This document shows, piece by piece, positions 1 through 30,769 of a stretch of 64,000 bases of DNA. Positions within the stretch are counted from its first letter, which is position 1, and every line of letters starts with the position of its first letter. The notes beneath the pieces were generated by a model. The model was not told the DNA's origin and searched no databases. It saw only the letters and a program-made list of their open reading frames with translations. This DNA comes from Bryum argenteum (Eukaryota > Streptophyta > Bryopsida > Bryales > Bryaceae), in contig CM073326.1 in assembly GCA_037043015.1 (NCBI GenBank), forward strand, positions 2,480,001 through 2,544,000. Reading direction: 5' to 3'. The position numbers and the translations under genes are program-made.

Positions 1-1356
1 ATTATGTTCTGTAATAGTTAGCGATGTATATAAATTGTTATTGGGGGTATTTATAAAAAATCCATCTATTAGGCTGGTTTCACTATAATTTTGTCCTCCT
101 TGTCTCGAATATACAGTGTTTGTTGGTATATATGTTAGTTGTAGGGAATTTGTGAATGCTCGCCAATCCTTGTCTTCTAATTGCGGTGGAGTTGTGTCTA
201 ATTCGTGTCGACGACCTATGAGAGCTATGTCTCTACTAAAATCCCCACATAATATTTGAATGTGGTTAGGGTGTGCTGTAATCTGTTGTGTTATTTGTAG
301 TTGTATTGTTTCTAAGTAAGGGGTGTCTTTGGATGTGTGGCATGTACATGTGTATAAGTAACCAAGGTTGTAGGGGTTCATTTTTTATTTTTATGATTTG
401 TAAATATGGTGATATTGCGGCGGGGGTTGGGATTTTGGTAACATTACCTGAGTATGTGTATTTGTTGTTTATAAATAACAAAAGGCCTCCTCTTGTAGGT
501 GTATATTCCATTCGTTGTTGCATGCATCGCGTTAGTGCGTGTGTGTTGTTGAAGATCATTTTGTGATTTGGAAATAGGTTTTGAAGGTATCTGGTAGATT
601 TTGTGGCAGTTAGTTTAGTTTTTTGTATTGCGATGATTGCAGGGCTTGTTGGAGTGTTAGTGATTAATTCATGTAGATTTGGGAGGGCGGTGTTGAGCGA
701 TGAGGCATTCCATGTGACTATATGTGTTTTATGGTTTGTGGTGATTGGTGTTGTATTTTGTGGGGGGGTACATCCGGTCTTTGGAGGATGGGAGTATTCG
801 GGGAAGAGGTTCGTTGAATTTTAGGGGCTTGTAAGTAGGTTCTCGGGTAGAAATGGGAATTTGTTTTTAGTTGTTCTTGATTGGGTGGTGTGTTGTTTTG
901 TTGAATGAATTCGTATAATTGTTTGTGTATGGTATTTGGGGGGTTTATTAGGTTACAATTTATGTTTTTGAATTGTGTATATGGGTGTGGGTTGTTAAGA
1001 TGTCTTTCTGGTGGGTTTTGAAGTGTGGCCATTTCGTTCAGTAATATAGTAGTCCAATTAGGATTTGTGGGGTGTTCAAGGATTCGATTTGCATGTTTAC
1101 GGTGATGGATTTATTGTTGTGATAAGAGCGTATAATATGCGAGGTCTTTGGGTGATGGTAGTTTTCATGGATGTAATTTGTAAGATATGGGTATTTTATT
1201 TGTCTTCGGATGTTGTGGGTGAGTATTTATGAGACATGGCGCGAATTGTGTTGATAGATGTTGGTATTCGGGATGTAGACTAATTGTGCATGGTATAAAG
1301 TAGTTTTTGCATCTACGTTTGTGAACGGATGGGTGTGTTTTAAGTATATTTGGCAT

Positions 1357-1385
1357 GGGCCCAGGTTAGTTTCGATATCACCGCA
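1357..1385 (-). other. 2A-like motif, second copy broken by a one-base deletion
   Basis: About 720 bp downstream in the element the same module recurs: CGDIETN, then PGPMPN in another frame. Comparison with the intact copy shows one C missing in the Asn-Pro codons (AACC-TGG against AACCCTGG). The flanks match too (YNDKYHLTR against YNDIHHLIK upstream, MPNI against MPNV downstream), so a whole module was duplicated, not just the motif. Confidence 0.72.
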
Positions 1386-2077
1386 TCGTGTTAAATGATA
1401 TTTGTCGTTGTATGTGTATTGGTAATTTTTGTAGTGTGGTTTGTTGATTTTGGTACTTTTGTAGATATAGTGTTGTTTGTGTGTGTTTTGTATGTTTTTG
1501 AGTTATTGATTTGTAGGTGAGTTGGAGAGGTCGGGTTTGTTTGTTTGTATGTATAGTGTATTGCGTAGCGTTTGTTGTTTTGAGGTTGGATATTTTAGTA
1601 TGTTTTGAGTGATGTAGTTGTTGTCTGTAATGGAATGTTTTTTTTTTTGTTGGGTTTATTTAGTTTTTGAGGCCAAATTATCGGTGTGGATGTAATGGTG
1701 TGTATTTGGATTTTGTATATTGTTTTTAGTTTATAGCGAGGTTTGGGAGGCCGAACTTGGTTTTTTATTTGGTTAGAATTGTGTGTGTGGTTTGTTTGTT
1801 TACTTATGGATATTTTATGGTATTTTATGTAGTGTAGATGTTCTCTTGTGACGAGGTATTTTTGTTTGTTTCTGTTAATTTGTTTTAGTTTTAGAAGCCC
1901 CATAAGTTGAGCTTTTTGTGTCTCTAACTTGGGTGTAATGGTGCGTGTGTGGGTTTTGTATGTTGTTTTTAGATTTGGTTTATAGGTGAGGCCGGGAGGC
2001 CGAGCTCGCATTTTCATGTTTAACGTGTTTTGTGTGCGGTTTGTATGTTTGGGGTGTTTTTCAAACACATTTGGCAT

Positions 2078-2107
2078 AGGGCCAGGGTTGGTTTCAATAT
2101 CCCCACA
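2078..2107 (-). other. 2A-like (ribosome-skipping) motif, intact copy
   Basis: The minus strand encodes CGDIETNPGP followed directly by MPN. It fits the established 2A consensus D-(V/I)-E-x-N-P-G-P, and the upstream HHLIK fits the hydrophobic/basic stretch usually found before it. In known 2A peptides the ribosome skips the Gly-Pro bond, separating upstream and downstream products. Here it would release about 30 residues or more from the front of the LINE ORF2 protein. The motif is seen directly. Activity is inferred from family knowledge and untested. Confidence 0.8.
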
Positions 2108-2239
2108 TTTGATTAGATGATGTATATCATTATATTTGTAATAATATGTGTTGAAAGTTCTCTTGGATACACTCATTGAGGTAGTGTTAAAAATAGTCTT
2201 TTTATCAAATTTGGTTTTGGCCAAGAAATATATTAATTG

Positions 2240-2354
2240 AAAAAATAGGTTATCTAAAAATAGGTTTTCTAAAAATAGGTCTTCTAAAAATATGTCTCTA
2301 AAAATAGGTTTTCTAAAAATATGTCTTCTAAAAATATTTTTTCTAAAAATAGAT
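2240..2354 (-). repeat. 15-bp tandem repeat keeping frame with LINE ORF2
   Basis: About eight units of a 15 bp repeat (plus-strand core TCTAAAAATAGGTTT with variants). On the minus strand each unit reads as a pentapeptide of the type E-(N/D)-(L/I)-F-L, and the frame runs on into the 2A-bearing ORF2. One unit is a base short (GAGAC where others have GAAGAC), which shifts the frame. The differences between units mostly keep residues similar. Confidence 0.7.
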
Positions 2355-2395
2355 TGATAATTAATTTAAAAATATTTGTATTTTTACTTAATTTT

Positions 2396-2605: not shown

Positions 2606-4207
2606 CTAGTTTGACGTGTCCATGTTTCCTTCGATCGCCAAAATATCTGATCTTTCCCCTACACTATCTATGCATTGCATTGTAGCTGCTAATTGTTGTT
2701 TGAGTAGAGCTAGCTGTGTGTTCAACTTCTTTGAAGATGTGTCCACATACTCTTTTGCTTCCTTGATCATTGACTCCTTCATGGTTCCAAGCTCTCTTCG
2801 TATCTCGTTATTGCCTTCTTTGACCGCATCTTTCATGAGTTTCTCAAGCTCTTGTTTTGAATAGCCCTTGTGTGGAGCATTTTCCATGGCTTCGACCGTG
2901 TTTGCTAATGCCGTGTTGACATCCGAAAACCCCAAAGATGTAAGTTCCTCTTGAGATGGTGCATTAATTCCATCAGGACTCTTAGGGTGAGGGGTAAATT
3001 CCACATATTTACCCAACATTTTTACATTCTTTTTTAAGTGTTTCTTATAAACAGCCGGATTTAGACACTGGACGTTACAACTTCCCACATGCTTTTTACC
3101 CTCAAGTCGGAAAAACACATTGACAACATTTTTCTCGCCCATATGTTTTTTAATCTCATACTCAATTTCTTGAGTACTTTTGACTTTGTTGAGATTTTTG
3201 ACTATGAGGATGAGTGCATTCTTTTGGGCTTTCTCTTTGTCCGTTAGCTTCTCTTTCATTGAAACTTTTGCCTCTAGGATTTCATTATCAACCGTGACTT
3301 TGTATTTTATGATCTTGTTATATTGTTCCGGTGATGTGGCAACAACCCATGCAAAGTTAAATTCTTTTTTCTTTTGGACATTAGTTATCTCATACTCATG
3401 ACCTCTATAAAACCCTTCCGCCATGGTTTCCTCTAAAACATCAAACCATTCTTTGCCCCTAAGGTTTTCGCTTGAAATCTTTGCTGAAAGGAGGTTATTG
3501 AGTGCAAGTGCGTCATACGACTTGCACACTTTACCCCTCCTCGAGACGTTATCATCCATAGTAAGGATGAACGCTCTCGTTCCTTGGAGGAGTGCCTTTC
3601 CATCCTTATGGGGCTCTTTCAAATGAATTTTAATTAGGCCATTCCAAGTCTTAGACTTGTGAAAACAAAAAATTGCTATGTTTTCACTGATTTCTTCTCC
3701 AACTTCTATCTTCATCTTTTTTAGTCTTTCTTTTGTTTTCTCCAATATCAAGTCTCTTGCCCATCTGTTCTCTTCTATTTCAAAATGGATGGCTATGTGG
3801 TAGTCAAATGAAAACCCTTGGTCGTCAACCTCAACATCAAACGGGATTTGAGTGAGGTTGAAGTGTTGGCCTTCCACCCCATCCTCCCTTTTGTAGGGCC
3901 ATTCTTCTTTGAATAACCCAAGGAAAAGAAGGGGTGGCGTTTAGGGTTTCCTTTGCCTCCTCATGTTCCATGCCACTTTTCATTAACTCATGCACACTTA
4001 CAAATCTATCCTTTGGTAAATTCTTTTTGCGATTGGTCCAATTTAGTGCTTGAAACCCAAGCCAAAAGGGAGGACGTGGTGCAATATGCTCCTTTCCTTA
4101 GCCTTCTTTTGGCTTGACGTTTCGTTCATTGCACTTAATCTCTTTTGTGAAGCACTCACCTCTTCCATACCAACATCTTTGGGGTTTGAGGAACTTGTAG
4201 ATGCCAT
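2606..4207 (-). pseudogene. LINE ORF1-type protein with C-terminal coiled coil, frameshifted
   Basis: The largest intact piece is 423 codons (3877-2606). Going upstream, the same protein continues in other frames to an ATG at 4207 (MASTSSSNPKDVG), with frame changes near 4073 and 3920. The middle is charged and Lys/Glu-rich. The C-terminal 85 residues (from about YSKQELEKLM) form a predicted coiled coil. It has no CCHC knuckle and no obvious RRM. It sits immediately upstream of and co-oriented with the endonuclease-encoding ORF2, separated by about 130 bp, as ORF1 does in two-ORF LINEs. ORF1 is usually a nucleic-acid-binding chaperone. I do not recognise this subfamily by sequence, so the call rests on position, coiled coil and decay. 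Confidence 0.68.
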
Positions 4208-28744: not shown

Positions 28745-30769
28745 CACTACCCTCCAACAAGTCTTGCAACCATTTTGTGAACTCTTGAAATTCTCTAATT
28801 CATTTTCAAAATGGGAGGATTTTATCAAATTTATCCTATTAAATCTTTTGTGTTATGGACCCTTCACGTGTTCATAAAATGTCAATGTTAAAAAACAAAA
28901 TCTCTATTTTTGATGAATTATTTTATCTTTTTCACTTAATTTCAAAAAAAATTAACTGAGAAATATATATGATGATTTTTTAAAATTTGATTGCACCAAT
29001 CTATAGGATATATCATTGTTCACATTCTTGGTATTACAAAGATGCATACTATGTAGGTAAAATTCTCCTCTATGTGGCTCTAAAGTATTTTCATAGTTTC
29101 CATTCATTCATATTCTAGGCTAAGGAAATCAAACTCATATATTAAATCAAAATTTGATCAAATAAAGTCAAATAAGGTATCATTACAAAGCTATAGTAGT
29201 ATAGAAGCCTAATATGATATGAAGTTTACAATATGTCTTACTCACTAACAAATATTCTACGAGAAATGGAACACCTACTACCATTGAGTGCTACCACCTT
29301 GAGTCGCTATTACGACTTTCATCCGGGTTGGCATTGTTGAAATCAACTTCTTGATGCTTTCTTGAGGTATATCCTCCCAAGCCAGATTGACTGATGTCCA
29401 CATTTCGTCTTTGTTTCGTGGTCTATTTCTCTGTTGCACTTGATCTTTAACTTGCTTCCAGACATTCTCTATAGGATTAGGGTCAGGAGAATTTGGTGGC
29501 CATTCAAGCTTTTTCAATCCAAGTTGCTGTCTCCAATCTTTTTGTATATTACTACCATGTAGTGGAGCACCATCCTCCATTAAAATGAGGTGCTCATAGT
29601 GGTCATGGTGCCAATAATAATGCTCTAATGCTCCTTGAGATACTATCTCTACAAAGTCTTTGGCAGTGCGTCTATTAGGAGGAATTAACACCAAATAAGA
29701 CTTAGAAGAGCCAGTGATAGCACCCCATACCATAATTGAAGTCCTTCCGGATTTGAATGTAGATGCTAAGCAATTGTAGTTGTAGCGTTCATATGCTTTT
29801 TCGCGGATTACGAATTTGGCGTGATGGTTTTCCAACTTCAAAGGATGACTCATCGGTCCAAATCACATTACTCCAATTGTCAATCGTCCAATGCAAGTGC
29901 CCCTTTGCAAAAGCCAACCTCTTTGCCTTGTGTATGTCACTCAAGAATGGTTTCTTCACTGCAATGCAACTGTTAATACCAAGCTCATGAAGCTCTTTAC
30001 GTAAAGTTGACATGCCCACGGAAGATGTCACATTCTTTGCACAGTGCCGCAAGAGGAGCACGACGATTACTACTAAGATCTCTATGGAGCCTTCTCCTAT
30101 CTCGATCACTCATGTTTTTCGGCCCTACCGGATCTACTTGTTGGCAATCTGACCCACTAATTCTAAATCGCTTGAGAATCCTTGAAATAGTCGATTTTGG
30201 CCTTCCTACAATGTTTCCAATTTCACTCACCGACATGCTAGCTTTCTGCATACCAACTATCATGTGTCGTATATCATTTGATACATAACTCCTTGTCATG
30301 GTGCACAATCCTCAAACAACACTTACATCCACAAAAAGTTTGATAAAAAGGTCCTAACAACAACACAGAAACGATATGTTTGACAAACAAGACTTGTTGC
30401 ACACAACTTTTCTAAGAAATGTGTACCATCAAGATGACTTACAAACAAGTATGTGTATCTCTGGACCCTCCCAAGCTCAAACATACTCAAAATCTGATAT
30501 CCCAGAGAAGAAGTGATCACATTAAGAAGGGTACCCTTTTCCAAGATTTTTAAGCATGATGGCAATTTTGGTAGACACATGGCAATGGATGCCTCTTTAT
30601 ATTTAGAAAATGCTTGGTGTATGAAGGTAACTGGAACACCTTTCATGATGCAAAAAATCTCATGGAGATGTGATGATTATCATGCCAATACCACCATTCT
30701 AAAACAGGCCATGGGATATGTTTTAAGTGAAAAAACAGAGTGTGTTGCAACACTTGTTGGAGGGTACTG
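28745..30769 (-). mobile_element. Tc1-type DNA transposon, complete ends, about 2.0 kb
   Basis: The ends are inverted repeats: CACTACCCTCCAACAAGTCT from 28745, and CAGTACCCTCCAACAAGTGT reading inward from 30769. TA lies immediately outside each end (28743-28744 and 30770-30771), the target duplication of Tc1/mariner elements. CAGT-type termini are also usual for the superfamily. The transposase reads on the minus strand inside. Confidence 0.85.
29278..30308 (-). pseudogene. Tc1-like DD34E transposase, two frameshifts
   Basis: Three overlapping frames make one protein of about 340 residues. The N-terminal helix-turn-helix region has MSVSEIGNIVGRPKSTISRI. The first catalytic Asp is in WTDESSFEV, the second in LMEDGAPLH, and the Glu in WPPNSPDPNPIENVW. 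Thirty-four residues separate the second Asp from the Glu, so it is DD34E, unlike the DD39D mariner elements usual in flowering plants. Frame changes occur near 30030 and 29835, so this copy is dead. The MEDGAP and PDxNPIENVW wording resembles fungal and animal Tc1 relatives. The source is not determined. Confidence 0.88.

Follow-up and report, generated by a model that had tools for sequence, protein, structure and literature searches.

A conserved 2A-like motif ahead of the endonuclease-reverse transcriptase protein of a Dualen-like LINE superfamily in a plant-like genome

Peptides of the 2A type are reported, in the parts of the literature drawn on here, from viruses, from non-LTR elements of trypanosomes and animals, and from animal NLR proteins. 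Animal and trypanosome non-LTR elements that have an APE and a 2A (Odon 2013, Heras 2006) reportedly belong to CR1, L2, Rex1, Crack, and Ingi, and such elements are reported to tend towards the loss of ORF1. A 2A (or StopGo) peptide releases the upstream chain, after which translation continues with proline, and it works in plants when introduced (sections of PMC12846837, PMC12371167, and PMC4981915). In PMC12846837, natural StopGo is described as mostly limited to viruses and as very rare among the coding sequences of cells, and no evidence is reported that plant viruses use it naturally. The Dualen/RandI elements, which are listed from green algae (sections of PMC3747384 and PMC8226300), are defined by an APE together with a second, restriction-like endonuclease and also have an RNase H (sections of PMC4640811 and PMC3636483). 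The initial annotation of the locus described here knew of no well-described plant LINE with a 2A, and none was reported for a plant LINE or a Dualen-like element among the papers listed by our searches of the open-access literature.

The window (the whole stretch of 64,000 nucleotides that was analyzed) lies on contig C6 of an assembly that has 25 contigs and totals 258.8 Mb; this assembly was the genome searched. Direct reading of the minus strand gave CGDIETNPGP at positions 2107-2078 (core octapeptide at 2101-2078), an intact and full match to the 2A consensus, within a leader frame of 256 open codons (1595-2365, minus strand). The core of 2A/StopGo, (D/G/C/N)(V/I)ExNPGP, is present in this peptide and in many of its relatives. 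A second 2A copy at about 1385-1357 of the same strand starts 722 bp downstream of the first, and across 42 bp of flanking sequence the sites are 76% alike; the second copy is one base short in the window, which breaks its frame. These readings bear out the initial annotation, which had described a full consensus match, a second copy with similar flanks about 720 bp on that lacked one base, and an AP endonuclease downstream. When the back-translated pattern D-(V/I/L/F/M)-E-x-NPGP was searched in the window's own genome (259 Mb), 165 exact matches were obtained compared with 0 for the reversed control, and chance is thus excluded.

The window element lies on the minus strand throughout. Its most upstream feature is an ORF1-like frame of 444 codons (2606-3940) with a coiled-coil-like C-terminal part, which had no Pfam match and whose sole PDB match was weak (E 0.0022, residues 363-412, to a circular tendon repeat protein). 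Downstream of it, low-complexity repeats of 15 and 27 bp occupy 2241-2455 in the leader, and the leader frame contains the first 2A and a basic region of RPPGL repeats, which lies between the two 2As at 1637-2017. The second 2A (1357-1385) is followed by the first part of a domain of about 200 amino acids that is present in all subfamilies aligned (832-1365, frame broken) and by an AP endonuclease domain (1-739, also frame broken); the domain names were taken from the relatives L041 and L043. Because the element extends past the window start, its later domains were taken from a longer copy, L021, in which matches to a reverse transcriptase (RT), a PCIF1-like domain, and RNase H lie downstream of the AP endonuclease. 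Strand asymmetry is extreme at window positions 1-2000, where the plus strand has a GC skew of 0.565 and an AT skew of -0.379, which means that the coding strand of the element is A- and C-rich. The genes seen around the element are of plant type (an LRRNT_2 repeat protein, two DUF716 genes, and a kinase), and a DDE_3 transposase fragment lies at window 29281-29862 of the minus strand.

For comparison, we used 23 stretches of about 10 kb (L021-L043), which were picked from motif and leader matches and are thus a non-random set; 11 of them are of the window type. The ORF1 protein is up to 97-99% alike in other window-type copies, and lower where their frames are broken, and it is about 45-54% alike in L028, L029, L031, and most of L032. 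Open relatives are long (2889 codons in L041 and 2286 in L043) and give the order of domains after the 2A as about 200 conserved residues, AP endonuclease, RT, a PCIF1-family domain, and, in L041, RNase H. The residues directly after the 2A are conserved in the 12 copies aligned, and their predicted model is mostly helical, with middling confidence (pLDDT 60.5). In L041, the AP endonuclease was matched by PF14529 (E 8.3e-7) and PF03372 (E 1.2e-6), RNase H by PF00075 (E 6.3e-13), and the PCIF1-family domain by PF12237 (E 8.2e-12), the last falling below the curated cut-off in L043. The PCIF1-family domain is placed between RT and RNase H, at residues 2139-2266 of L041:1334-10000 (minus strand). 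Where the known cap methyltransferase has NPPF, the copies show AHPH, AHTH, or AHPY, and this PCIF1-like domain may be inactive.

The RT profile ranked R2 (1.3e-34) ahead of L1 ORF2p (1e-19) among solved structures, and this ranking gives no support to membership of the plant L1 group. The initial annotation had spoken of a plant LINE ORF2; a LINE with APE and RT in a plant-like genome is indeed what we find, and what lacks support is a standard plant L1, the RT being nearer R2. No RT relatives were confirmed in the bacterial/archaeal and viral collections. Near the C terminus, L041 and L036 have a CX2CX9HX4C stretch followed by RPD or KPD...E...K..KY, which by eye resembles, and is possibly, a restriction-like endonuclease of the kind in R2 and Dualen. 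A search for such an endonuclease gave no PDB match with a single sequence and no Pfam match, and a profile returned just an unrelated match at E 0.7; the predicted model of this C-terminal part was poor (pLDDT 32.8). We refer to the element as Dualen/RandI-like, which falls short of proven membership and is based on comparison with Dualen/RandI by description.

To determine how widely the 2A is kept, we used two anchors that were chosen without regard to the motif, namely the domain after the 2A and the RT, whose samples overlap and are not independent. The motif listing was complete for contigs C1-C4, which hold 85 of the 165 genome matches. With the domain as anchor, 150 of 319 candidates were scored, and 79 matches lay on C1-C4. 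Of these, 75 extend to the place of the motif, where the exact 2A is present in 61 and missing in 14; two further exact sites at matches that start later bring the count to 63 of 79. Divided by identity, the exact 2A was found in 22 of 24 among the most diverged copies (mean 50%), in 28 of 36 in the next class (mean 68%), and in 11 of 15 in the closest (mean 79%), compared with 0.2, 2.5, and 2.9 expected if, as a simple model has it, the seven fixed residues changed in the way the other residues do. With RT as the anchor, 95 matches were listed (94 of 556 candidates scored), 47 of them on C1-C4; an exact motif was found on the same strand within 6 kb upstream in 34 of the 47 and in none of the remaining 13, and its distance to the RT match was 2084-2129 bp in 30 of the 34. 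Conversely, 81 of the 85 motif matches on C1-C4 fall within the family (63 at the domain and 18 at leader matches or in an examined locus), and four are unplaced, one of these 864 bp before another 2A. Each of the D, E, N, P, and G residues uses two to four codons in the 47 of 165 matches tabulated, which, as the search pattern fixes those residues, shows merely that silent change is common.

Because the motif is exact in 34 of 47 RT matches and 61 of 75 domain matches, the most diverged copies included, we conclude that the 2A is, as judged by these anchors, a conserved part of the LINE superfamily. That a LINE of a plant-like genome has a 2A/StopGo motif ahead of its APE-RT protein is thus upheld by the genome matches and by both anchors. 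The check for family members elsewhere that lack the motif, which the initial annotation had suggested, did not refute this, as other members have the motif at the same place. Further, we note that the upstream context of the L041 type, FLLLCG-DIESNPGP, fits the published L-rich class in which p12 is D and p15 is S (sections of PMC12846837), and that the HLIKCG context of the window type is merely similar to the published hexapeptide class.

We then considered what lies upstream of the 2A. The initial annotation had put the motif at the front of ORF2; it does precede the APE-RT protein, but in related copies it follows an open leader and stands directly before the conserved pre-APE domain. In eight stretches, the leader is open for 40-759 codons from the last stop, and some of these frames may start in non-element sequence. 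The leaders carry RPPGL-type or low-complexity repeats, with a separate ORF1 further upstream in many copies, and the five tested have a G content of 7-11% and are rich in A and C or in A. Five leaders, which were selected because they are open and have 407-759 codons, each exceed the longest frame in 500 Markov shuffles. In a pairwise comparison of L031 with L038, dN/dS was about 0.56 for the leader with the 2A and 0.12 for the domain after it, and the latter domain gave 0.09-0.22 in three other pairs. This combination of unusually open frames and weak constraint suggests that the leader is probably translated and loosely constrained. In some copies, the frames are open on both sides of the 2A. 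The leaders of L043 and L039 also contain decayed 2A-like sites (CKDIESNRDP, NKDIESNRDP) upstream of the intact 2A, which hint at older rounds of 5' exchange.

Taken together, we consider it probable that the element in the window is a decayed member of a large LINE superfamily with many domains and that its 2A works as follows. The ribosome would first translate the leader; once ...CGD(I/V)E-x-NPG occupies the exit tunnel, formation of the Gly-Pro bond would be prevented and the leader released, and translation would then resume to yield a replication protein beginning with Pro-Met. The 2A/StopGo would thus free the leader polypeptide and the APE-RT-RNase H protein from each other as they are translated. 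Both that skipping occurs at the family 2A and why the separation would be useful are inferred.

How ribosomes enter the leader bears on this proposal, and one route would add to it rather than replace it. In this route, which we regard as rather unlikely, -1 frameshifting from the end of ORF1 reaches the leader and ORF2, and the 2A then frees the replication protein in a gag-pol-like manner. The leader frame of L031 opens in the -1 frame 22 nt before the end of the ORF1 stop and has no AUG for 247 codons (L031:2290-2400, oriented), and, when counting starts 54 nt ahead of the ORF1 stop, all 11 window-type copies have 24-365 open codons in the -1 frame, compared with 17 and 21 for the other two frames. 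However, inspection by eye showed no clear slippery heptamer, the 11 copies are so closely related that they amount to one observation, and indels make the frames vary further down. The possibility that the ORF1 stop is read through was set aside, as the window sequence has another stop in the same frame one codon on.

An alternative to skipping, which we hold to be improbable, is that the 2A-like peptide is unused, that the replication protein starts at the invariant Met after it, and that the octapeptide is either a remnant or maintained for some other reason. A Met directly after the 2A proline is found in all 12 aligned copies, which leaves an independent start there possible, and the absence of an early AUG from the L031 leader frame points the same way. 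Against this, the octapeptide is exact, with silent codon change, in those 22 of 24 copies that are merely about 50% alike beside it, codons ahead of a start would not be expected to retain just the residues that a 2A needs, and some leader frames are open far beyond chance.

The double 2A of the window type was examined by mapping each side of it onto single-2A relatives. On the 5' side, L021 2682-3049 is 92.7% like L036, with a likeness of just 67% further on, and L023 2806-3050 is 96.3% like L036. On the 3' side, L021 3041-9888 (to the end of the stretch) is 96.8% like L031 and 96.5% like L028, whereas 5' of the junction its likeness to L031 and L028 is confined to pieces of 66-73% or is absent. 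The change from L036-like to L031-like sequence falls at a short A run at window 2052-2060 (minus strand), which is common to all 11 window-type copies, with changes beside it in L030, and most of the low-complexity repeats at 2241-2455 are within the L036-matching stretch. No ORF1 match was present in the examined stretch of L036, so that only roughly 370 bp before the junction can be traced to the L036 type. By this mapping, each of the two 2As matches a different subfamily, with a sharp junction where the two meet, and the arrangement is better explained as a chimera of two related elements. That the second 2A arose instead within a single element by tandem duplication, in line with the repeated module and the "mobile or tunable cassette" of the initial annotation, is very unlikely and was rejected, as the two sites share the 76% flank likeness over 42 bp but each side of the junction is far closer to its matching subfamily than the sites are to each other, and L036 and L031 bear one 2A apiece in the examined stretches.

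The simplest reading of the chimera is that it arose once, when a 5' end from one subfamily was joined in frame to another subfamily, probably by RT template switching, and that it spread afterwards. Among the 11 window-type copies, the first 2A is exact in 10, the second in six (L023, L025, L027, L033, L034, and L035), and both in five. Both sites lie in one open frame in two of the 11, namely L023, where the frame has 585 codons, and L022 if its V variant at the first core place of the second site is counted; V at this place is reported to be active (sections of PMC12846837). The two 2As of L023 differ at four of 23 bases, all silently. An intact double copy would give three pieces, with an RPPGL peptide of 242 residues (counted on L023) freed between the leader and the replication protein. 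When the second site was aligned across the window copy, 10 other double copies, and four single-2A copies, the window had a substitution in common with L024 and L030, and its one-base loss was not shared with any of the other 14, L026 having lost another base of these codons. In their 3' parts, the double copies are about 2-3% different from L023, as is L031.

Further, double arrangements are not confined to the window type. L039 joins a 5' part of the L043/L037 type (91%, up to 3191) to a body of the L041 type (75%, from 4386), with unplaced sequence between them, and L040 resembles it. L042 (genome C5:2174255-2179069) has a frame of 2489 codons in which the post-2A domain occurs three times, twice with an exact 2A before it, and is, as read from this frame, a nested or concatenated chimera. 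These arrangements suggest that 5' exchange recurs. A broader proposal, that this is a land-plant superfamily of dual-endonuclease LINEs in which skipping is ancestral and conserved, possibly after -1 frameshifting, and in which multi-2A polyproteins arose repeatedly through 5'-end swaps, is one that we put forward tentatively, as possible rather than probable. If the proposal of a working 2A holds, its conservation in an abundant plant retrotransposon would mean that plants meet native ribosome skipping, plant-derived 2A peptides would be available for multigene expression, and a route would be apparent by which LINEs can gain polyprotein plans through exchange of their 5' ends.

Overall, the element shares features with several known systems. 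With the viral 2A/StopGo peptides, as described in sections of PMC12846837, it shares the core D(V/I)ExNPGP with G before D and, in the L041 type, the L-rich upstream stretch ending in CG and the S at p15, and it differs in that the peptide resides here in nuclear retrotransposons of a plant-like genome. Plant L1 LINEs have APE and RT in their second protein, as here, but the RT profile of the present element is nearer to R2 than to L1 ORF2p among solved structures. APE, RT, and RNase H are also found in Dualen/RandI, compared by description, and the C-terminal zinc-finger-like stretch and following RPD...E...K..KY of the present element look by eye like a restriction-like endonuclease; unlike Dualen/RandI, the present element has a PCIF1-like domain and a 2A, and its second endonuclease is putative. 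Finally, the 2A lies upstream of the APE-RT protein as it does in the non-LTR elements of animals and trypanosomes; those elements reportedly belong to CR1, L2, Rex1, Crack, and Ingi, with a tendency to lack ORF1, whereas the element described here has an RT nearer R2 than L1, keeps ORF1, and has an open leader before its 2A.
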